From a virus: a stretch of 23,289 nucleotides of DNA. The notes under the pieces are model-generated. The model ran no database searches and had not been told where the DNA came from. It saw only the letters and a list, made by a program, of their open reading frames with translations. Of this stretch, positions 4,192 to 17,631 are shown one piece after another. Made by a program: the position numbers and the translations under genes. The stretch is from the IMG/VR virus record IMGVR_UViG_3300046804_001501, positions 1-23,289 of that record; one strand, given 5' to 3'. Positions within the stretch are counted from its first letter, which is position 1. Each line of letters opens with the position of its first letter.

Positions 4192-5154
4192 TTACTTTGC
4201 CAGCATTAATGCGCTAAATTGATTTTCTATTGCTCCAATTACAGAAGATTGAGGAACAATAATTTTTCGCTTTTCTTCGTTTAATTCTACTTCATAATCG
4301 TAATATGTAACTGGTGCAACTGTAGTTGCAATTGTTAATGTGGCATTTGCACCAGTCACAGAACTTGTGACATTGTATGAGTTTGTATAGGAAGTATTTG
4401 TATTGATATTCACAACACTGCCAGTTGAGTAATTATAACCATTTGCTGTGACTCTATACTTTTTAACTTCTGAGAATGTTGGGTCATCAGAATTTGTTTT
4501 TGTTTCAGTTACCTGATAATGACTGATTGTATTAGAAGCCCACTCATAGCCATCTAAATTATTTGTTATTGCAATAACAGTGTGTGTTTGTGCAGCTGAG
4601 TTTGATGTAACACCTTTTATTGTTCTTCCATTTGCAAACATCTGAGAAGGAAATTTAAGTTTTAATATTTTATTAGTTGAGTCATATGCAACAATTGTGC
4701 CTTCTGCAGATGCTTTATCATATCTTGTTGGATGATAATGATAAACTGATTCATGCACTGGATCATCGCTCTGATATACAATTTCGCCAACTGTGTAGTA
4801 TGTTCCTGGAGTTGCATAAGACTCAGTTGTGCTCAAACTTACATTAATAGAAGCATATTTCTCTTTAATATATTTGTCGAATTCATATGGTCCAAGTGGC
4901 CAATCAAAATGCGGATCAATAATCTCATTTACCAAAAACAATATCCAATGCTTTTCAGGATTCCCATATACTCTGTTTGCAATTTGCTCTGCAGTTTCTC
5001 CGCCCTTAACTTCATACTTGAAGAATAAACTTTGATTTGAAATAATAGAATCAATAAACTTGACTCTAGCAAGCATATCTGGAACAATTTTTGCATTGTT
5101 CCCTTCTTTGTTTAGAGAATATAAAACTCTAGGAAATTTAGAAAAGTATGCCAT
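4192..5154 (-). CDS. 53: Baseplate wedge protein gp53 with an internal beta-rich insertion
   Basis: Residues 35-100 match gp53: YEVKGGETAEQIANRVYG, then NPEKHWILFLVN and DPHFDWPL, aligning with the T4 segment that contains YGNP-YWVLL and YDPYYGW. The C-terminal KRKIIVPQSSVIGAIENQF is the normal gp53 end. gp53 clamps neighbouring wedges around the hub. At 320 residues it is much longer than T4 gp53 (196). The excess is a Ser/Thr/Asn-rich, beta-predicted stretch at about 115-295, with YRVTANGYNYSTGSVVNI and SVTGANATLTI segments that look like a small beta-sandwich or bacterial Ig-like insertion. Its start overlaps the gp48 stop (TAATG). Confidence 0.85.
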   Translation of the reverse strand: MAYFSKFPRVLYSLNKEGNNAKIVPDMLARVKFIDSIISNQSLFFKYEVKGGETAEQIANRVYGNPEKHWILFLVNEIIDPHFDWPLGPYEFDKYIKEKYASINVSLSTTESYATPGTYYTVGEIVYQSDDPVHESVYHYHPTRYDKASAEGTIVAYDSTNKILKLKFPSQMFANGRTIKGVTSNSAAQTHTVIAITNNLDGYEWASNTISHYQVTETKTNSDDPTFSEVKKYRVTANGYNYSTGSVVNINTNTSYTNSYNVTSSVTGANATLTIATTVAPVTYYDYEVELNEEKRKIIVPQSSVIGAIENQFSALMLAK

Positions 5155-6350
5155 TAGTATCCGTTCTTAATATCGTTCTTGGTTAGAATTACACTTTCAA
5201 TAAACTCAATGTCTAAACTGATGGATACTGGTGTGCCATCGCGATGAGTTGTGAAGGTGTCGAGCTGTGCTGCATAATTGGTGTTTATTGATGCAATCAT
5301 ACAAGTTGTCACACGCGGCATGGCCAAATTTTCTATAAACTTACCAGTTGAATCTCTTCGTAAGAATTGAATTTCAAAATGATTAGGTGGTACCAAATAG
5401 CGAGTTCCACTGCCTTCAGCAATAGTTCCTTGCCCACCAGCATTTTCAGAGTGAGAGTGAAATCTAAATGTCTTAATAATTTTTTTGATTTCATCTGCCT
5501 CTTTAAGATTTCTTGGCGCAAATCTAAACTGAAACATAAACGTTCTTGGTTGTGTTCCACCATATGTGGTCTCAAGCATTGGATTTAATGCATATCCAAG
5601 ACCAGCAAGTATGGCTTCAGTTGATCGAGAACCAAATATTCCAGCTCTGCCTGCTAGTTCTGCAAATACTTCAGTTCTACCTAACGGAGAACCTAATCCA
5701 CCAACTGAAGCTGGAAATCCTGCAGTATACAATCCAGCTTTGCCTGATGCCTGATTGATTGATATTGGTTGATAATCATGCTTATCTTGATTAATAATCG
5801 TATCTGGCATGTACAATGTGATTGAACTGTCTAACTCAACAGTTCTTCTGCCATAATTCGTTTTTTGTCCACCTGTTAAATACTCGTATCCATTCGCACC
5901 AATTCCAATCAAATCTTCAGTCACTTTTCCAATATTAAATTTAGAGCCTTGCACAAGAGAACTCTGAAACAAAAAAGAAGTATTAAATGCGCCTTGTGTT
6001 ATGGGGAATTGTCTAACCTTTCCATTATACTGATCTGGTGGATTACGGAATGATGGAGTCACATTTGGATCATCTAAGAAAGATCGTTGTTGAGCATAGG
6101 CTACAAATCGAACTGCATTTTTAAATCCACCAGTTGGGTCGCCGATATTAAGTGGGTAATATAGATGCTTCGGCGCAGATTTTGCTCTGGATTTCCCAAT
6201 AACATCAATGCCTTCTAGCAGTTCGCCGTCTCTTGGACCCCTCCCAGGTGTTCTGCCAATGACATTAATATCTGTTAGAACCTCATCGCCTCTTGTATCG
6301 ACTCCAGGTCGTTTTCCAATTACATCAATACTCTGCAATATCTCGGTCAT
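5154..6350 (-). CDS. 48: Baseplate tail-tube cap gp48 with N-terminal repeats
   Basis: The 398-residue protein has the gp48 signatures SSITLYMPDTI with a following YQPISI, NPMLETTYGGTQPRTFMFQF, APRNLKEADEIKKIIKTFRFH and a C-terminal VSISLDIEFIE strand. In T4, gp48 caps the baseplate hub and, with gp54, starts the tail tube. Residues 3-54 are an added repeat region of three units (ILQSIDVIGK, VLTDINVIGR, LLEGIDVIGK). The same motif occurs at the end of the gp54-like protein encoded divergently. The ATG is preceded by AGGA, 8 nt upstream. It is the first gene of the minus-strand baseplate operon and lies 22 nt from the divergent gp4 start. Confidence 0.86.
   Translation of the reverse strand: MTEILQSIDVIGKRPGVDTRGDEVLTDINVIGRTPGRGPRDGELLEGIDVIGKSRAKSAPKHLYYPLNIGDPTGGFKNAVRFVAYAQQRSFLDDPNVTPSFRNPPDQYNGKVRQFPITQGAFNTSFLFQSSLVQGSKFNIGKVTEDLIGIGANGYEYLTGGQKTNYGRRTVELDSSITLYMPDTIINQDKHDYQPISINQASGKAGLYTAGFPASVGGLGSPLGRTEVFAELAGRAGIFGSRSTEAILAGLGYALNPMLETTYGGTQPRTFMFQFRFAPRNLKEADEIKKIIKTFRFHSHSENAGGQGTIAEGSGTRYLVPPNHFEIQFLRRDSTGKFIENLAMPRVTTCMIASINTNYAAQLDTFTTHRDGTPVSISLDIEFIESVILTKNDIKNGY
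6189..6344 (-). repeat. Three-unit peptide repeat in gp48 N-terminus
   Basis: Three units with consensus [VIL]-L-[TQE]-[GSD]-I-[DN]-V-I-G-[KR], spaced 20 residues apart and separated by Gly/Pro/Arg-rich linkers. It matches the repeat at 7949-8131. Confidence 0.85.
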
Positions 6351-6807: not shown

Positions 6808-7355
6808 TGGCAGCATTATTAGAAAAAATTAATAGAGAACTAGCCAAACGAAACATTGCTCCAAGAACAGCTGCTGCAAAATCGTATATACAAGGATTGA
6901 TTGCTAAAACAACAATCCCAACAAACAGATCTAATATTCTAAATGACGCCAAACGAATTACGCCATTTGCTGCAGTTGGTAGAATGTTCTTTTTTCGCTA
7001 TGACCCATTAACAAAAGAAAAATTATCACAATGGGATGAGTTTCCATTGGTGATTCCAACAACGGTAACTGGTGATGGGTTTACGGGTATAAACCTACAT
7101 TTTTTGGATTTTGGAATGAGATTACCATTATTGGATGGTCTTTCAATGTTCTTGAACAATGATAAATATGATGATTCTACAAGATTCGTTCTTTCGTATG
7201 ATTTGATTAAGAACATGAGTCAGTTTGCAGCAGTTAAAAACTGCATGAGAAGATACTTGTATGATCAAATGGTATCCTCAATAGTTTATATTGAGCCAAA
7301 TAACTGGGAAACAGCGATATACCTTCCAGTGCAAAATATGCGGAGTTATGGTTAA
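6807..7355 (+). CDS. Conserved structural protein of environmental T4-like phages, function unassigned
   Basis: A 182-residue protein translated by TAATG coupling from gp4 and into the gp54-like gene. Its core (FFFRYDPLTKEKLSQWDEFPLVIP, then DGFTGINLHFL and LPLLDGLSMF, ending WETAIYLPVQ) is a pattern I associate with a conserved family next to gp4 in cyanophage-type myoviruses. No T4 gene number can be given. The position in the late structural run suggests a virion or assembly role. There is no signal peptide or membrane segment. Confidence 0.75.
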   Translation: MAALLEKINRELAKRNIAPRTAAAKSYIQGLIAKTTIPTNRSNILNDAKRITPFAAVGRMFFFRYDPLTKEKLSQWDEFPLVIPTTVTGDGFTGINLHFLDFGMRLPLLDGLSMFLNNDKYDDSTRFVLSYDLIKNMSQFAAVKNCMRRYLYDQMVSSIVYIEPNNWETAIYLPVQNMRSYG

Positions 7356-8155
7356 TGGCAATTGATCCACAAAAAACATTAGACATTAATAACTTTCTCT
7401 CGGAAGTAAGGCTGAGTGGGTTCTCTAAACTCAATAGAATTGCTATTAATATCAAACCACCAAGAGAATTAATACAAATTCTGAATTATAAAAACAAAGA
7501 TAATTATCTAACCTATTATGCAGAATCTGTTCTGATTCCAGGATATGAAATACTCACAAACAATTTGTTTTTAGGTGGTCCGCCACTAAACATACCAGCC
7601 AGAAGCGAATATGCAGACGTATCAACAACGTTCCTCGTTGACGATGATATGCGCCAAAAAGTATTCTTCGATGCATGGATGAATTTTATCAACCCAAAAG
7701 AAAGCAAATTTGATTTCAGATATCGAGATGAATACATTGGAGAGATTGATGTGTTTCAAATTTCAGAAGATGGCAATAGAATCTCATATGGCGTCAGATT
7801 ATATGAAGCATTTCCTATTGCTGTTAGAGAAGTCAAAGGAAGTTGGGCTGAACAAGAACCAATCAGACTCGATGTAAACTTCTCATATCGCTATTGGAGA
7901 AGTTTTAATGCAGATGAATATGAACGAACAGATAACGATGCGCCTATAGTATTAGAAGGCATCGAAATAATTAATGGCGGTCGTAAAAAGATTGGTGGTA
8001 AGGAAGTATTGACAGGTATTAATGTTATTGGTAAAACTGGTGGTAAGGAAGTATTAACAGGAATAAATGTAGTTGGAAAAACAGGTCCTAAAGAAATTTT
8101 AACAAGTATTGATGTGGTTGGTAGAACAGGAAAAAGAAACGTATCGCCAAGATAA
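7355..8155 (+). CDS. 54: Tail-tube-fold protein, likely baseplate tube initiator gp54
   Basis: Residues 10-184 follow the gp19/gp54 tube fold: an N-terminal SEVRLSGFSKLNRIAINI strand, AESVLIPGYEI, an STTFLVDDDM strand, FFDAWMNFIN, then YEAFPIAVREV and LDVNFSYRYWRSF near the end. gp54 and gp19 share this fold. The position next to gp26/gp51 and divergent from gp48 favours gp54, but a gp19 paralogue is possible. Residues 199-259 form an added tail of four repeats (consensus KE-[VI]-LTGINV-[IV]-GKTG) matching the gp48 N-terminus. The start overlaps the upstream stop by TAATG. The 266-residue length is shorter than T4 gp54 (320). Confidence 0.72.
   Translation: MAIDPQKTLDINNFLSEVRLSGFSKLNRIAINIKPPRELIQILNYKNKDNYLTYYAESVLIPGYEILTNNLFLGGPPLNIPARSEYADVSTTFLVDDDMRQKVFFDAWMNFINPKESKFDFRYRDEYIGEIDVFQISEDGNRISYGVRLYEAFPIAVREVKGSWAEQEPIRLDVNFSYRYWRSFNADEYERTDNDAPIVLEGIEIINGGRKKIGGKEVLTGINVIGKTGGKEVLTGINVVGKTGPKEILTSIDVVGRTGKRNVSPR
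7949..8131 (+). repeat. Four-unit tandem repeat in the gp54-like C-terminus
   Basis: One degenerate unit (VLEGIEIING) is followed by three close copies of KEVLTGINVIGKTG spaced 15 residues apart. The two central copies (7994-8089) are near-identical at DNA level, which points to recent tandem duplication. Confidence 0.88.
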
Positions 8156-10427: not shown

Positions 10428-11327
10428 TTACTCAGCAGCCAGCTTCTCGAAGAATGCCATATCGTCATCATCAGAGACGCTGACATCTTCAGCAGTTACC
10501 TTCTTGGCTGGAGCAGAACGAACGACAGGAGCAGAAACTTCCTCATCTTCGATCTTACGCGCAGACGCAGCAGTTGCGCCACCAGCACCAAGAACTTTAT
10601 CTAACTTCGCCTTCAACTCATCGTAAGACTTGAAGTTTTCTGGCTTCAAGAAATCCTTGAGTGAGTGTGCAGACTTCCAGACCTTTTCAATCTTCTCGTC
10701 TTCACCATCAAACAATGGAGCAGGAGTATCAAACTCTGACTTGTCATAGTTACGATAACCTTCGACGTTACGAATTTTAATCTTGAAGTTAGCACCCTTC
10801 CAGAAATCAAAGGGATTCATTGGCTTCTCATCTTCAAATTGTGGTTCGAGTTGTTCCTTGATCTTATCAAAGATTTTCTTACCAAACTTGTAGAGGAATA
10901 CCTTACCTTCGTTCTGCGGACGCTTGGCGTCAGAGATGACAAGCACATTTGCGATGTACGTCAACTTGCGCTTTTGCTTGCGAGCAATTTCCTTGTTGGC
11001 TTCAATGCCAGAATTCCAAAGAACTGTATTATGCTCAGAGACTGGGTCAGTCTTGCCAAGAGTTGTGAGAGAATTCTCAATGTACCAACCACCTGGACCT
11101 TGGAAACCGTGCGACCAGATTTGAACCCACGGTAGACCGTCTTCACCGTCAACAGCTGGCGTATCAAGAAAACGAATAACTGCGTATCCGTTGCCAGCAG
11201 CGTCAACTTCAGGTTGCCAGAAACGCTCATCTGCGCCTTTGCCACCACTATTACCACCTGCAGATTGTTCAACTGCTTTCTTTAACTTATCAAGGGACGA
11301 ACCCTTCTTTAGACTAGATAGTGTCAT
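10428..11327 (-). CDS. 32: Single-stranded DNA-binding protein gp32, lacking the zinc cysteines
   Basis: A 299-residue homologue of T4 gp32. It has a basic N-terminal cooperativity region (LKKGSSLDKLKKAVEQ), an OB-fold core (YAVIRFLDTP, WVQIWSHGF, KRKLTYIANVLVISDAKRP, NEGKVFLYKFGKKIFDKI, FWKGANFKIKI, GYRNYDKSEF) and an acidic tail (SVSDDDDMAFFEKL) of the kind that recruits replication partners. In T4 a zinc is held by H64, C77, C87 and C90; here the C-P-V-C pair reads D94-P-V-S97, so the zinc site appears lost. The ATG follows GGAG by 8 nt. gp32 coats ssDNA in replication and recombination and works with gp59, encoded immediately upstream as in T4. Confidence 0.95.
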   Translation of the reverse strand: MTLSSLKKGSSLDKLKKAVEQSAGGNSGGKGADERFWQPEVDAAGNGYAVIRFLDTPAVDGEDGLPWVQIWSHGFQGPGGWYIENSLTTLGKTDPVSEHNTVLWNSGIEANKEIARKQKRKLTYIANVLVISDAKRPQNEGKVFLYKFGKKIFDKIKEQLEPQFEDEKPMNPFDFWKGANFKIKIRNVEGYRNYDKSEFDTPAPLFDGEDEKIEKVWKSAHSLKDFLKPENFKSYDELKAKLDKVLGAGGATAASARKIEDEEVSAPVVRSAPAKKVTAEDVSVSDDDDMAFFEKLAAE

Positions 11328-11396: not shown

Positions 11397-12005
11397 TTAT
11401 ATAGTATTCTCATCAGCAAGTAAAGCCTTCTTCGTTAGCAATTTATACTTACTGACATCCACATTCAAGAATGCTCCGTATTTACGGATTTTTCTTGAAA
11501 TCTTGGGATAGATAATATCATCGCTGATCTTTTTATCCCAGATACGAACAAAGTCGAAGATGTTATTGAGGATTACCATCGTCTCAAGTGTTACTTCTTT
11601 TTGTAAAAATAACACTAACAGTTTTGGAAACTGCCCATCTTCGACCTTAAACAAATCGTTGAATTCTTTTGGATTGGGGCAAATCCTATTAAGATCTTCA
11701 ACATAAACTCGACTCATCGAGTCTGTTATTCTTTTCCATTCTGCGTAAGTGCTTTCGGCTTCTTCTTCAAGAAGTGATTTAGTCCAATTGCTGTCACTGT
11801 GTACAAAATTAGCAACCAGAAAACTAACCATTTCGTCGTCACGATATTTTCTCGCTAGTCTATGAAATAGAAATTTATCTCTACGTTTTTCGAATGCTTC
11901 TATAGAAACGCGAGTTTTGCCATCATATTGAAAGAAGTTATATCCCTCAGTGGAGAAATGTAACTTAATGGCTTGATACATGCAGTATAGATCATATCCT
12001 CTCAT
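11397..12005 (-). CDS. 59: Helicase loader gp59
   Basis: The 202-residue protein aligns with T4 gp59: GYDLYCMYQAIKLHF with YNFFQYDGKTRVS and EKRRDKFLFHRLARKY (T4 has YKLYLMIKQHM, KYNWCMRVS, QKRRDKYFFQKL), then LVANFVHSDSNW and a C-terminal helical half. gp59 loads gp41 helicase on gp32-coated forks. The start overlaps the gp33 stop (ATGA). The order 33-59-32 is the same as in T4. Confidence 0.92.
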   Translation of the reverse strand: MRGYDLYCMYQAIKLHFSTEGYNFFQYDGKTRVSIEAFEKRRDKFLFHRLARKYRDDEMVSFLVANFVHSDSNWTKSLLEEEAESTYAEWKRITDSMSRVYVEDLNRICPNPKEFNDLFKVEDGQFPKLLVLFLQKEVTLETMVILNNIFDFVRIWDKKISDDIIYPKISRKIRKYGAFLNVDVSKYKLLTKKALLADENTI

Positions 12006-12223
12006 AGAGGCAGTCGACTTCCTCGTGGCAAAAATCTTAGTTCCATTGCCTCACCTTCAATAATGCTCTTAAGAGATTCATTGATCATTGTTGCAGCGAT
12101 TTCAATCTCAAGATTATTTCGCTCACAGTAAGTTGTGATTGCATCCATGTGATCAATCTTTTCTTTCAGAGCAATCTCCATGATCATCATAGAGAAATTA
12201 TTCTTTTCTTCGCGACTTGCCAT
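12002..12223 (-). CDS. 33: Late transcription coactivator gp33
   Basis: A 73-residue protein. MDAITTYCERNNLEIEIAATMI matches the T4 gp33 core (YLEATTAFLEENSIPETQFAKFI), followed by a KSIIEGEA-x-x-LRFLPR segment. In T4, gp33 bridges the RNA polymerase beta flap and the sliding clamp at late promoters. I place the start at ATG 12221-12223, just after the guaC stop and with a weak GAG site, rather than 18 nt upstream inside guaC. The T4 C-terminal clamp-binding LDFLL is not seen; the end is RGSRLPL. Confidence 0.82.
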   Translation of the reverse strand: MASREEKNNFSMMIMEIALKEKIDHMDAITTYCERNNLEIEIAATMINESLKSIIEGEAMELRFLPRGSRLPL

Positions 12224-12224
12224 A

Positions 12225-13247
12225 TTAGATCTCATAAGCATTCAGGGAATTATTCAGTTGCTGAGTGACGCGAACAAATGTCGCACGCTTACTCAGTTCT
12301 TTCAATTCACCTGCTCCAATATATGTACATGCAGAACGTAAACCACCCAAAATATCAGAGAGCGTTTTAGATACTGCTCCACGATAAGGAATCTCCACAG
12401 TCTTGCCTTCGGATGCTCTATAGTTTGCAACACCACCATTATGTAAATCCATAGCAGTGTCAGAACTCATACCATAGAATTTATTACCACCAAGTGAACT
12501 GGCGCCACCTTCTTTGTGACCTGCAAGCATTGACCCTAGCATCACAAAATCGGCACCCGCAGCAAATGCTTTCACAACGTCTCCAGGAACGGAACACCCT
12601 CCATCCGCTATAATGTGACCCTTGAGACCATGAGCGGCATCAGCACACTCTATAACCGCACTCAACTGCGGGTAGCCGATTCCTGTCATTTTGCGAGTAG
12701 TGCAAACTGAACCAGGACCAATACCAACTTTCACAACGTCAACACCTGCGAGAATTAATTCCTCAGTCATCTCTGGCGTGACAACATTACCTGCCATTAA
12801 CAAAACGTATGGATAACGATCACGAAACTTATAAACAAAATCAACAAACTGTTGCGTATATCCATTCGCAACGTCGATACAGACAGGTATATGTTTATTG
12901 CCTACTATATTATAGACATTATCAAACTTTGACAAGTCTTTATCTGATATTCCCAATGAATAAATCGAACTATTCAGTTTCTGTTTGAATCGTTCGATTA
13001 ACTCTACATCAGGAATATGTTTAGTCAGTGCGACCATGCACTTGTGTTTGTCCAGTTCTTCATCCATCTGAAGAGTACCAACGCCATCCATGTTAGCAGC
13101 AATAATTGGGACTCCGCGCCACTCATTGCCGCTGCGGAATTTAAATGTACGTTCTAATATTACTGCACTTCTTGTTGCTATCGTTGATCGTTTAGGAGTT
13201 ATCAAAACATCTTTATAATCAAGTTTCACATCTTCAAGTATTCGCAT
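12225..13247 (-). CDS. guaC: GMP reductase
   Basis: The 340-residue protein aligns end to end with E. coli Gua[62 protein letters not shown] with catalytic Cys182, [53 protein letters not shown] and [15 protein letters not shown]. It uses NADPH to turn GMP into IMP. The short [17 protein letters not shown] region and absence of CBS domains favour GuaC over IMP dehydrogenase. The ATG at 13247 is chosen because it aligns with the E. coli N-terminus and has GAGAG upstream; an upstream ATG lies inside the sleB-like gene. It sits directly before the 33-59-32 block, 1 nt after the previous stop. It is probably host-derived and may shift purines toward adenine for an AT-rich genome. Confidence 0.95.
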
Positions 13248-13248
13248 A

Positions 13249-13878
13249 TCAACTCTCTTTGTAGAACAAATGTCGACCAATTTTCTTTACAAATTCTTTC
13301 GTTTGCTTCCAGTTAGGATTGACATAATCCGCATGAAAGTATAACGCACCATCCATTGTACCGTAGTTTCGTTTAGAAATCAATATATTCTGAGCAATTT
13401 TTTGTGCTTCTTTGTATTCAGATTTCGAGCGAATTGCTTTGTCATCTTGGCAAACCCAAGAGAACTGGCAAACACCATTGCGCTTTTGCTTTACTACTGC
13501 ACAAACAGATCGAGCAAATCCTTCTTTGACTCGATTGAGTGTGACAGTAGCAACGGCAATTTTACCAGCAGTTGATTCTGATCTTGCCTCGAAATAGATA
13601 TTCTGAGCAAGACACTCAACCTCTCGTAAAACTGCTTGTTGTTTGTCAAAACTTAAACTGAGGAACTCTACTTGATGCGAAAGTAGATCTAGTTCATTAG
13701 CAAGCGCAATGCTTGTTGCTTGTTGGGCTTCATACTGTTGCATTGCACGATGTTGTACAGTGAAAGGTACATACATTGTGAAGAAAATAAATGCAAACAA
13801 CCCACCGAATCTAATGAACAAATTATGGTTGCGATCAAAAAAGTTTTCTACATCACGAAGTAAATTTACTGCATTCAT
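13249..13878 (-). CDS. Membrane-anchored SleB-type cell-wall hydrolase, candidate endolysin
   Basis: A 209-residue protein. Residues 20-40 ([20 protein letters not shown]) form one membrane segment, followed by a helical stretch with coiled-coil character at 45-85. Residues 87-207 match the SleB/Hydrolase_2 family (PF07486): [15 protein letters not shown] with probable catalytic Glu97, [16 protein letters not shown]-x-Q, CQFSW, the [14 protein letters not shown] stretch and a GRHLFY end. The family cleaves peptidoglycan. The anchor would hold the enzyme on the periplasmic side, as in signal-anchor endolysins. The ATG is preceded by GGAGGAAAC, the strongest ribosome site in this block. It lies just downstream of the tmRNA. 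Confidence 0.85.
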
Positions 13879-13901
13879 GTTGTTTCCTCCATTATTGCAG
13901 T

Positions 13902-13933
13902 GGAAAGAAAAGAGTGGTGGTTCGCACCACCAC
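13902..13933 (-). terminator. Hairpin at the tmRNA 3' end, possible terminator or processing signal
   Basis: Minus strand: GTGGTGG, TGCGAA loop, CCACCAC, then TCTTTTCTTTCC. The stem is 7 bp and GC-rich; the tract after it is pyrimidine- but not purely U-rich. It may end the tmRNA transcript or partly attenuate readthrough into the hydrolase gene. Confidence 0.5.
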
Positions 13934-13936
13934 CCC

Positions 13937-13970
13937 TGACCTTTCTGTTACCAAGCGGTCAACTCTGGTA
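13937..13970 (-). other. H-type pseudoknot after the tag
   Basis: On the minus strand, TACCA (13970-13966), TGACC (13961-13957), TGGTA (13953-13949) and GGTCA (13941-13937) pair in the interleaved order a-b-a'-b'. Both stems are 5 bp and perfect. tmRNAs normally carry pseudoknots after the tag. Confidence 0.75.
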
Positions 13971-13984
13971 TTCTTATACTGCAA

Positions 13985-14026
13985 TTAAGCAGCAAGAGCC
14001 ATTTCGTAAACATCATCGTTTGCGTT
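13985..14026 (-). other. tmRNA proteolysis-tag reading frame
   Basis: TAGTA (14031-14027) matches the UAGUC that fixes the resume codon in E. coli tmRNA. Direct alignment gives a tag NANDDVYEMALAA; starting at the GCA gives ANDDVYEMALAA. Either way the frame and the ALAA degron end, recognised by ClpX in this tag family, are the same, followed by TAA. Confidence 0.88.
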
Positions 14027-14109
14027 TACTAGGTTTGCGCTGATTAAGTCAGTCGCCTCACTGGTAGCCGTCAGGTTATTACTTGCCCCGTCGAAGCCAT
14101 TACATCCCC

Positions 14110-14160
14110 GTAGATAGCCACCACGTACATTGCTGCAGAGGTGGTGGGCATATTGATATT
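14110..14160 (-). ncRNA. Internal transcribed spacer of the permuted tmRNA
   Basis: 51 nt join the CCA end to the GGGG 5' end. They fold into a stem of CCACCAC (minus strand, about 14142-14136) with GTGGTGG. Removal would give the two-piece mature RNA. Confidence 0.85.
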
Positions 14161-14221
14161 TGGTGGAGATGGTGGGAGTCGAACCCACGTCCGAAACACC
14201 TTTAGCTGTCAGTTTACTACC
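14161..14221 (-). ncRNA. tmRNA acceptor piece with T-arm and CCA
   Basis: This 3' half of the tRNA-like domain contains the conserved TTTCGGACGTGGGTTCGA stretch also found at the end of one-piece tmRNAs. CCA is encoded at 14163-14161. The 31-aa peptide gene ends at 14223, immediately before it. Confidence 0.92.
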
Positions 14222-14222
14222 A

Positions 14223-14318
14223 TTATTCGAAAAGATCTTCAATAAAATCAACAATTAAAAGTGATGAGTATAAAATTCCAACGACAATACCACAACACTT
14301 CCAAAACAAGATCCACAT
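14223..14318 (-). CDS. 31-residue single-span membrane peptide
   Basis: ATG 14318-14316 opens a 31-codon frame: MWILFWKCCGIVVGILYSSL, then LIVDFIEDLFE and stop. Residues 2-24 are a continuous hydrophobic segment and the end is acidic. A good ribosome site (AGGA, 5 nt upstream) overlaps the preceding stop, which supports real translation despite the small size. I do not recognise a family. Location next to the tmRNA and upstream of a cell-wall hydrolase allows a holin-like or envelope role, but this is only a guess. Confidence 0.6.
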   Translation of the reverse strand: MWILFWKCCGIVVGILYSSLLIVDFIEDLFE

Positions 14319-14514: not shown

Positions 14515-15027
14515 TTAGCCATTCAAGACTTTACAAACGCTATTCATAACAGCAGCAATACGACCAATGTCGCGAAGTTGTTCTATAGTATAGTCCATCT
14601 TCTTCAGATTATCATAATGCGCCTTCACACAAAAGTGGCATTTGCCTACGATTGAGGCTGCGAGAGAATATGCTTCAAAATTTGCTTTTGAAGTGCCACC
14701 ATGATTCATAATTGCATTCATACGCAATCCAGCAGGCAATCCTTTGAGTGCAGAATCATCTGCCATTTCGACATATGGATACCAAACATTGTTTTGTGCC
14801 ATGATACAGGCTGCTGTCATTGCAGCATCGCATTCCTTGCGATCATCAAAGCCGCTGTCAATCACAGTCACGACTTTGCCATTGCCAGTTGCGTGTGCTG
14901 CGGCAAGAGCGCATCCTTGCGCAACGACAGGATCTAGAGTACTGCGCAGAAGCACAGCATCTAGATTCAATCGCGTATCCTTCGCATAATCAGGGATTAC
15001 TGATTTGAGTGATTCAATCCAACTCAT
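14515..15027 (-). CDS. ahpD: AhpD-like alkylhydroperoxidase
   Basis: The 170-residue all-helical protein contains the AhpD active-site segment GKCHFCVKAHYDNLKK, with C130-x-x-C133 and H137, followed by DIGRIAAVMNSV. AhpD reduces peroxides weakly and passes electrons to AhpC. Its ATG overlaps the ahpC stop (TAATG), so the two are made together. The length is normal for AhpD (about 175). Confidence 0.9.
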   Translation of the reverse strand: MSWIESLKSVIPDYAKDTRLNLDAVLLRSTLDPVVAQGCALAAAHATGNGKVVTVIDSGFDDRKECDAAMTAACIMAQNNVWYPYVEMADDSALKGLPAGLRMNAIMNHGGTSKANFEAYSLAASIVGKCHFCVKAHYDNLKKMDYTIEQLRDIGRIAAVMNSVCKVLNG

Positions 15028-15596
15028 TAGAGTGTTGCCCCACCGATCTGACGATTACATGCGCAGAGTTCGCCAGTTTGCAGTGCATCAAGAACACGAA
15101 GTGTCTCATCAGCATTACGACCGACGTTTAGATTGTTGACCGTAACATGCTGAATCACATTATCCGGATCAACAATAAAGGTTGCGCGAAGAGCAGCACC
15201 AGCTGGATTATAGAACGCACCAAGTTGGTCGATGAGACTTCGATCATCGCTGCTGTAGTCATAGGAATCATTGCGGTGAGTGTCAGCAAAGAACCATGAG
15301 GTGGTTGCCTTCAATCCTTCGTGAGCATTTTTCCATGCCAACTTACAGAACTCATTATCTGTGCTGCCAATCAAAAGAACTGCGTCGCGATCAGCGAAAT
15401 CCTTGTTCAACTTATCATAGGCAATAATTTCTGTTGGGCAAACAAAGGTAAAGTCTTTTGGATAATAGACAATCACTTTCCACTTGCCAATAAAACTGTT
15501 TTCTGTAATATTCTCGAAAGCATTATCAGGTGTCAATGCACCTGGCTTCACACCAGTAACTATGAATTTATCTAATAAATATCCAACTGTTTTCAT
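15027..15596 (-). CDS. ahpC: Peroxiredoxin AhpC (2-Cys)
   Basis: The 189-residue product has the peroxidatic motif FTFVCPTEI (Cys53), the WKVIVYYPKDFT strand, STDNEFCKLAW, a RATFIVDPDNVIQHV segment and a C-terminal ELCACNRQIGG with Cys178/Cys180 as resolving candidates. It reduces H2O2 and organic peroxides. I choose the ATG at 15596 because AGGAGTG lies 9 nt upstream; a start 48 nt further up has no such site. It is the first gene behind the promoter at 15630-15658 and shares a transcript with ahpD. Confidence 0.95.
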   Translation of the reverse strand: MKTVGYLLDKFIVTGVKPGALTPDNAFENITENSFIGKWKVIVYYPKDFTFVCPTEIIAYDKLNKDFADRDAVLLIGSTDNEFCKLAWKNAHEGLKATTSWFFADTHRNDSYDYSSDDRSLIDQLGAFYNPAGAALRATFIVDPDNVIQHVTVNNLNVGRNADETLRVLDALQTGELCACNRQIGGATL

Positions 15597-15629
15597 TTCA
15601 AACACTCCTGTGTAAAAGATATAGACATG

Positions 15630-15658
15630 ATTATATATGGGCAAAACTCCAAAATCAA
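15630..15658 (-). promoter_or_regulatory. Sigma-70-type promoter of the ahpC operon
   Basis: TTGATT (15658-15653), a 17-nt spacer and TATAAT (15635-15630) on the minus strand, about 34 nt before the ahpC ATG. The -10 is a perfect consensus match. Confidence 0.75.
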
Positions 15659-16856: not shown

Positions 16857-16885
16857 ATTCTACTATATTAGCAAGCAATTGTCAA
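16857..16885 (-). promoter_or_regulatory. Strong sigma-70-type promoter for the nuclease gene
   Basis: TTGACA (16885-16880), 17-nt spacer, TAGAAT (16862-16857) on the minus strand. The -35 is perfect and overlaps the phoH stop codon; the nuclease ATG lies 35 nt downstream. Confidence 0.82.
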
Positions 16886-17631
16886 GTATTTTGTTCTTGC
16901 TCATATTTTTCTACTGCAACCAAGAAGTCTTTAACAAGAGAAGAGCGAACAATATCGTCTGTTGTAAACTCGATATTGGTAAACGATGGCATACTCTTGG
17001 CAATTTCATGAAACTTGCGCATACCAGATTTATCACCAGCCTTACGATATAGGTCTGTCTGTTTGTAATCGCCACAGAAGATAATCTTGGAACGATAACC
17101 AACTCTTGTCATAATTGTCGACAATTCTTCGAATGTCATGTTCTGGCATTCGTCTACGATGATAATCGAATCATCGAAACTCATACCACGAATGAAACTT
17201 GTAGATATAAACTCAATACGACCACATTCTTTGAGAGCCTCATAAGCATCACGGCGACCAAATAACGTATGACAAATTTGCATATAAGGTTGTTCATACA
17301 AACTCATTTTTTCTTCAACAGATCCAGGAGTGAATCCAAGATCACGAGATTGTACGGCGGAGCGAACAATGATTACATGGTGGAATGATGATGTTTTATC
17401 CAGGACTTCTTCTATTGCCTTGTAAACTGCAATAAATGATTTGCCAGTACCAGCCGAACCACAGAGCATAGTAAAATAGTCACCACGTTTGTAGGCTTCA
17501 AAGAACAAAGCCTGATTAGAAGTTAATGGCTCAAATGCTTTTAACTCAGCTGCTTTGATTCTTGCTGGTTTTTTTTCAGCTGGTTGTTCAGACACTTGAA
17601 TAAATGTGTTACCGTTTTTCTTTTTAGACAC
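16882..17631 (-). CDS. phoH: PhoH-like ATPase
   Basis: A 249-residue P-loop NTPase: Walker A GSAGTGKS at 58-65, IIIVRSAVQSRDLGFTPGS, Walker B IIIVDECQN at 156-164, and GDYKQTDL as the sensor motif. This is the PhoH family found in many marine phages; the exact role in phage is unknown (RNA-linked ATPase). The start is GTG (17631-17629) preceded by AAGGA, which overlaps the stop of the upstream gene. The N-terminal 35 residues are a Lys-rich leader. Confidence 0.92.
   Translation of the reverse strand: MSKKKNGNTFIQVSEQPAEKKPARIKAAELKAFEPLTSNQALFFEAYKRGDYFTMLCGSAGTGKSFIAVYKAIEEVLDKTSSFHHVIIVRSAVQSRDLGFTPGSVEEKMSLYEQPYMQICHTLFGRRDAYEALKECGRIEFISTSFIRGMSFDDSIIIVDECQNMTFEELSTIMTRVGYRSKIIFCGDYKQTDLYRKAGDKSGMRKFHEIAKSMPSFTNIEFTTDDIVRSSLVKDFLVAVEKYEQEQNT

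Follow-up and report, generated by a model that had tools for sequence, protein, structure and literature searches.

A beta-type, circularly permuted two-piece tmRNA gene in a shared genomic slot of T4-like phages

Circularly permuted tmRNA genes are found in three main bacterial clades: alphaproteobacteria, betaproteobacteria, and cyanobacteria (PMC11915505). Among phages, a two-piece tmRNA was reported in 2022 for Melnitz, a relative of the virus considered here, and 53 of the 133 unique tmRNA structures in public phage genomes are two-piece (PMC9004378); the gene described below is therefore not the first phage-borne two-piece tmRNA. The roles proposed by the Melnitz authors are (i) maintenance of hijacked machinery or (ii) selective tagging of host proteins (PMC9004378). 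In the E. coli tag, AANDENY binds SspB, while ALAA binds ClpX (PMC8512704). What is new here is (i) a beta-type lineage in the slot between PhoH and gp33, (ii) modular tag exchange, and (iii) a conserved AND-x-x-aromatic signature; no description of these was found in the open-access literature, which as the sole literature covered is weak evidence of novelty.

The window, i.e., the whole stretch of DNA that was analyzed, is a 23,289-base virus record. Its PHROG matches comprise baseplate hub and lysozyme, wedge, tail-tube cap, head closure, DNA end protector, and tail tube as well as gp32, gp59, and gp33, and the window is therefore T4-like, as a preliminary description made from the letters alone had held. 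By gp32 comparison, HTVC008M and Melnitz are the nearest phages in the database (~56-58% identity). The tail-tube protein (7355-8155, C terminus) and the gp48-like tail-tube-cap protein (5154-6350, N terminus) have in common a three-fold repeated peptide, E(V/I)L(T/Q)xI(D/N)V(I/V)G(K/R)(T/P), which was read directly. The genes that frame the RNA are as follows.

16882..17631, minus strand: PhoH-like gene, the upstream boundary of the slot (Pfam PhoH, 2.7e-47; synteny)
15027-15644, minus strand: AhpC-like peroxiredoxin gene, upstream of the tmRNA (Pfam AhpC-TSA, 7.2e-22)
14515-15027, minus strand: CMD/AhpD-like gene, upstream of the tmRNA (Pfam CMD, 2.9e-10)
13249..13878, minus strand: SleB-type cell wall hydrolase, the next gene downstream of the tmRNA (Pfam Hydrolase_2, E 1.2e-22)
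12225..13280, minus strand: IMP dehydrogenase/GMP reductase family protein (Pfam IMPDH, E 3.6e-65)
12002..12241, minus strand: gp33-like late transcription coactivator, the slot anchor (PHROG 254, E 1.1e-13; synteny)
11397..12005, minus strand: gp59-like helicase loader (PHROG 269, E 6e-59)
10428..11327, minus strand: gp32-like single-strand DNA-binding protein (PHROG 224, E 1.8e-112)

The AhpC-like peroxiredoxin and CMD/AhpD-like pair just upstream of the tmRNA (14515-15644) recurs in many relatives.

An intact circularly permuted tmRNA gene lies on the minus strand at ~14256-13911. ARAGORN calls a tmRNA* at 13894-14253 with the tag ANDDVYEMALAA, and two Rfam models score far above their cut-offs: tmRNA_permuted (RF04321) with 147.9 bits against 47 at 14221-13985, and beta_tmRNA (RF01850) with 135.7 bits against 84 at 14256-13911. 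The Rfam E-values of the two matches in the 23-kb window, 1.1e-29 and 1.1e-41, exclude a chance match. Beta_tmRNA wins over the alpha and cyano models for this RNA, in a comparison that retains only the top model of the clan. The permuted two-piece tmRNA proposed in the preliminary description, which had named ARAGORN and Infernal with Rfam as the checks and a missing covariance-model match as the adverse outcome, is thus recovered by both programs. The interval that it gave (13914-14225) located the gene correctly, but the gene is slightly longer, at 13911-14256 by the beta_tmRNA model and 13894-14253 by ARAGORN. Its parts are listed below.

13911..14256, minus strand: permuted tmRNA gene (precursor), beta type (Rfam beta_tmRNA and tmRNA_permuted; ARAGORN tmRNA*)
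14161..14230, minus strand: acceptor piece with the P2 3' strands, T-arm, acceptor strand, and ACCA; 5' end approximate (covariation)
14188-14172, minus strand: T-arm, within the acceptor piece
14171-14165, minus strand: 7-nt acceptor strand CATCTCC
14164-14161, minus strand: encoded ACCA
14110..14160, minus strand: 51-nt spacer with a CCACCAC/GTGGTGG hairpin, expected to be removed by cutting
13985..14109, minus strand: 5' half, from GGGGATG to the tag stop codon
14037..14056, minus strand: stem-loop of the first pseudoknot region (GCGACTGACTTAATCAGCGC), with covarying pairs in alignment columns 270-309; coordinates counted from the sequence
13985..14023, minus strand: tag reading frame ANDDVYEMALAA-stop (ARAGORN and sequence reading)
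13910..13937, minus strand: terminator-like hairpin AGGGGTGGTGGTGCGAACCACCACTCTT, followed by TTCTTTCCAC

The order is permuted, with the acceptor half and its T-arm upstream of the 5' half. Every element of the preliminary description is present on the minus strand where it had been placed, including the CCA end at 14161, the 51-nt hairpin spacer, the GGGG start of the 5' half at 14109, and the tag at 14023-13985, whose frame has a hydrophobic, Ala-rich end and a stop codon. The perfect 7-bp acceptor stem with G3.U also stands, as GGGGATG and CATCTCC form seven of seven pairs, and P2 between the halves, formerly a possible pairing, is now supported by covariation.

Compensatory changes that keep the pair are seen at 20 of the 31 consensus pairs in an alignment of 28 phage genes. 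The covarying helices are the acceptor stem, the T-stem, both P2 segments, and the first pseudoknot stem; the P2 that joins the halves changes in a compensatory manner at columns 9-14/257-262 and 34-40/234-240, while G3.U appears as an invariant U-G at columns 65-216. In each of the 87 parsed phage genes, all seven acceptor-stem pairs form and G3.U is unchanged, with eight pair combinations overall; four further genes failed to parse, among them those of L133-L135. Tag frames stay open across phages, and the usual LAA end is retained via differing codons.

CCA is encoded in 84 of the 87 parsed phage genes. It is not a phage-only trait, being encoded in 18 of 51 sampled betaproteobacterial genes. 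Spacer length in phages ranges from 3 to 159 nt, and the shortest spacers (3-6 nt) are no phage novelty, as bacteria have equally short ones. The window-type spacer hairpin sequence occurs in 34 viral contigs, while close relatives have spacers of 4-5 nt instead. In all newly fetched loci that were checked, this hairpin lies inside a tmRNA; having been found only within tmRNAs, it is unsupported as an independent mobile element.

The position of the gene is shared among relatives. Loci were fetched by the IMPDH/GMPR protein and gp32, not by the tmRNA, and then scanned; the 94 that were counted extend at least 2.6 kb upstream of the gp33 anchor, or of GMPR if gp33 was not found. ARAGORN finds a tmRNA* in 79 of these 94 viral loci, in one shared slot that, in loci with both genes, always lies between PhoH and gp33, in the gene order PhoH-(AhpC-CMD)-tmRNA-(SleB-GMPR)-gp33-gp59-gp32. 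The other 15 loci have no tmRNA by ARAGORN, and the gene is therefore probably not essential to this phage group. An odd ARAGORN tag in L056 does not reflect an interrupted tmRNA, since the ordinary ANDDSFTPMALAA frame is present. Both RNA types occupy the slot: the best Rfam model is alpha in Melnitz, L136, L159, L112, L144, and L152, and beta in L117, L121, L020, L119, L124, L131, and L133. The type of L112, L144, and L152 is unsure because Rfam says alpha and the tree places them on the beta side. Structured RNAs of differing kinds lie directly 3' of two phage tmRNAs: a glutamine riboswitch in Melnitz (L002 5592-5640) and a manA RNA motif in L159 (1273-1446).

A tree of cores, spanning the tRNA-like domain to the tag, splits alpha and beta types with support of 100/99 and places the window on the beta side, where it forms a clade with 35 other phage genes (95/96). 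The nearest bacterial gene found has ~77% core identity, compared with up to 94% among phage relatives. When bacterial genomes were scanned twice with exact patterns for an acceptor half nearly identical to this one, no permuted bacterial relative emerged; the first scan had zero matches, and the second matched two genomes, whose matching loci carry a one-piece tmRNA. The preliminary description had taken the ALAA end of the tag as a beta/gamma-style sign. This argument fails because the majority of sampled alphaproteobacterial tags also end in -ALAA, and as evidence of beta origin the tag end is set aside; it is the covariance model and the tree that support the beta assignment. Taken together, two independent programs (ARAGORN and Rfam), covariation, and the tree support the identification of the window RNA as a permuted two-piece tmRNA of beta type, encoded by a T4-like phage. 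The tmRNA type, as the only indication, suggests a betaproteobacterial host; against this, phages of the gammaproteobacterium Stenotrophomonas carry related permuted tmRNAs.

Given the intact anatomy, the compensatory changes, a tag frame that has been maintained, and a slot fixed in many phages, this gene very probably encodes a working two-piece tmRNA that would supply extra ribosome rescue during infection. The most likely predicted role is ribosome rescue with host AlaRS, SmpB, and ClpXP. One precursor would be transcribed and cut on both sides of the spacer by host tRNA-processing enzymes, and the acceptor stem and P2 would hold the two pieces together. Host alanyl-tRNA synthetase would read G3.U and charge the encoded CCA end, whereupon host SmpB would carry the tmRNA to stalled ribosomes. 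Once the tag A-ANDDVYEMALAA had been added, host ClpXP would recognize it, probably with the help of SspB. SmpB was not found in the eight phage records searched, including a 173-kb and a 141-kb one, so the RNA would rely on host factors. The likely benefit would be more rescue capacity while mRNA is cut during infection, with the tag controlled by the phage; extra ribosome rescue is the simplest benefit.

The tags keep their ends and vary between them. In a set of 22 distinct tags, from which clearly alpha-type phages and L144/L152 were left out, every tag has AND-x-x-[Y/F] and ends in a short hydrophobic stretch, whereas the middle and the length vary; the residue that aligns with Tyr7 of E. 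coli AANDENY-ALAA is Y or F in all 22. At core identity of at least 0.95, phage pairs have an identical tag in 29% of cases and a mean tag identity of 0.77, vs 51% and 0.95 for betaproteobacterial pairs. The aromatic residue is separated from the last three residues by three residues in the window (EMA), one in host-like tags, and up to five in other relatives, and the aromatic-to-LAA spacing of the window phage clade is 2-4 residues longer. SspB is present in 25 of 26 genomes of one betaproteobacterial family that carries beta-type permuted tmRNA. The tags of L116 and L133-L135 end in MVA rather than (L/I/V/M)AA (ANDSRFLMVA, ANDNSYRMVA), which could alter ClpX recognition.

Tags and tRNA-like domains have different histories. 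L023 and L057 are 65-68% identical in their tRNA-like halves, 100% in the tag, 99% over the next 75 nt, and 68% thereafter. Conversely, L010 and L012 share 97-100% of the halves, 72% of the tag, and 47% after the tag, where L010 is 96% identical to L057. If the tree is built from only the tRNA-like halves, ten changes between three tag classes have to be assumed, the minimum being two. These mosaics and the ten tag-class changes indicate that the tag, together with the pseudoknot segment downstream of it, is transferred between phages without the tRNA-like domain. Assembly chimerism is an unlikely source of the swapping because several contigs contain the same gene sequence, three of them for L010 and five for L023. 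Selection may favor tag exchange, although neutral recombination at shared sequence could do the same. It is conceivable, if rather doubtful, that the tag belongs to an exchangeable ~120-nt tag-plus-pseudoknot cassette under diversifying selection, in which the SspB contact (AND-x-x-aromatic) and the ClpX end are kept while spacing and middle change, such that the virus tunes ClpXP handling of rescued fragments.

The tag data bear on a second explanation, in which the phage variant replaces the host tag and proteolysis is redirected through a changed degradation rate or adaptor dependence. The preliminary description had proposed both an own supply of rescue RNA and a redirected host ClpXP as roles, and either would be plausible. 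The greater tag variety at equal core identity, the exchanged segment, and the lengthened spacing in the window clade would all fit, as would the finding that an E. coli SENY linker before ALAA lowers the KM of ClpXP from 3.38 to 1.55 uM, i.e., by roughly half, when SspB is absent (PMC8512704). With SspB, however, the longer linker has no effect on ClpXP degradation (PMC8512704). Against this explanation, the tags retain the ends that SspB and ClpX contact, and most of them should accordingly remain ordinary degrons; the variation in the middle may simply reflect relaxed constraint plus recombination; redirection is therefore a tentative reading, well behind ribosome rescue. Still less plausible is a decoy that inhibits host trans-translation by soaking up SmpB, after the manner of mycobacteriophage DS6A, whose minimal, tag-less tmRNA-like RNA inhibits tmRNA (PMC4131195, PMC11915505), because a decoy needs no tag frame, stop codon, or pseudoknot, and all three are maintained in dozens of phages. 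Finally, a functionless gene recently captured from a host, for which the bacterial beta-type affinity of the closest cellular relatives found might speak, or an assembly artefact is most improbable and is contradicted by the ~77% vs 94% core identities, the supported clade of 36 phage genes, and a slot shared by dozens of contigs from many samples.

Phages that carry a ribosome-rescue RNA of their own provide a natural variant set of a central bacterial quality-control system. One slot with two RNA lineages and many tags that keep the adaptor and protease contacts renders the purpose of a viral tmRNA testable, and the question opened is whether phages gain more rescue capacity or control over the fate of tagged fragments.

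Like the window, the mycobacteriophage Bxz1 group, Bacillus phage G, and Streptomyces phages encode tmRNAs, which are presumably one-piece. Those of the Bxz1 group and phage G are listed with no mention of permutation (PMC4131195), and those of Streptomyces phages are present as record annotations.

The betaproteobacterial permuted tmRNA (RF01850), the best covariance model for the window RNA, has the same gene order, tRNA-like domain, P2, and tag frame. It differs in that sampled betaproteobacterial tags are mostly ANDERFA(L/I/V)AA, with 10 residues vs 12 in the window, and core identity is at most ~77%.

Melnitz, a phage of Methylophilales/OM43 (MZ577097, ssrA gene 86), is likewise an aquatic T4-like phage with a permuted tmRNA in the PhoH-gp33 slot. 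Its RNA, however, is of alpha type (best Rfam model alpha_tmRNA) with the tag ANDNYVPVDYALAA, in contrast to the beta type of the window, and it is followed by the glutamine riboswitch, of which the window has no match at the Rfam gathering threshold.

The Stenotrophomonas phages Marzo (Menderavirus) and DLP6 are cultured examples of large phages with a beta-type permuted tmRNA, and their tags, VAANDDSYTVRIAA and ANDDSFAPMAIAA, respectively, resemble the window family. The DLP6 gene is unannotated in its record (L280 3951-4294, corresponding to KU682439.2 ~102807-103150). As permuted forms are known mainly from the three bacterial clades named above (PMC11915505), the Stenotrophomonas host probably has an ordinary one-piece gene. 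Both phages fall in one phage group with the window, with moderate support (86/84), but their tmRNAs lie in tRNA clusters, whereas that of the window occupies the PhoH-gp33 slot.
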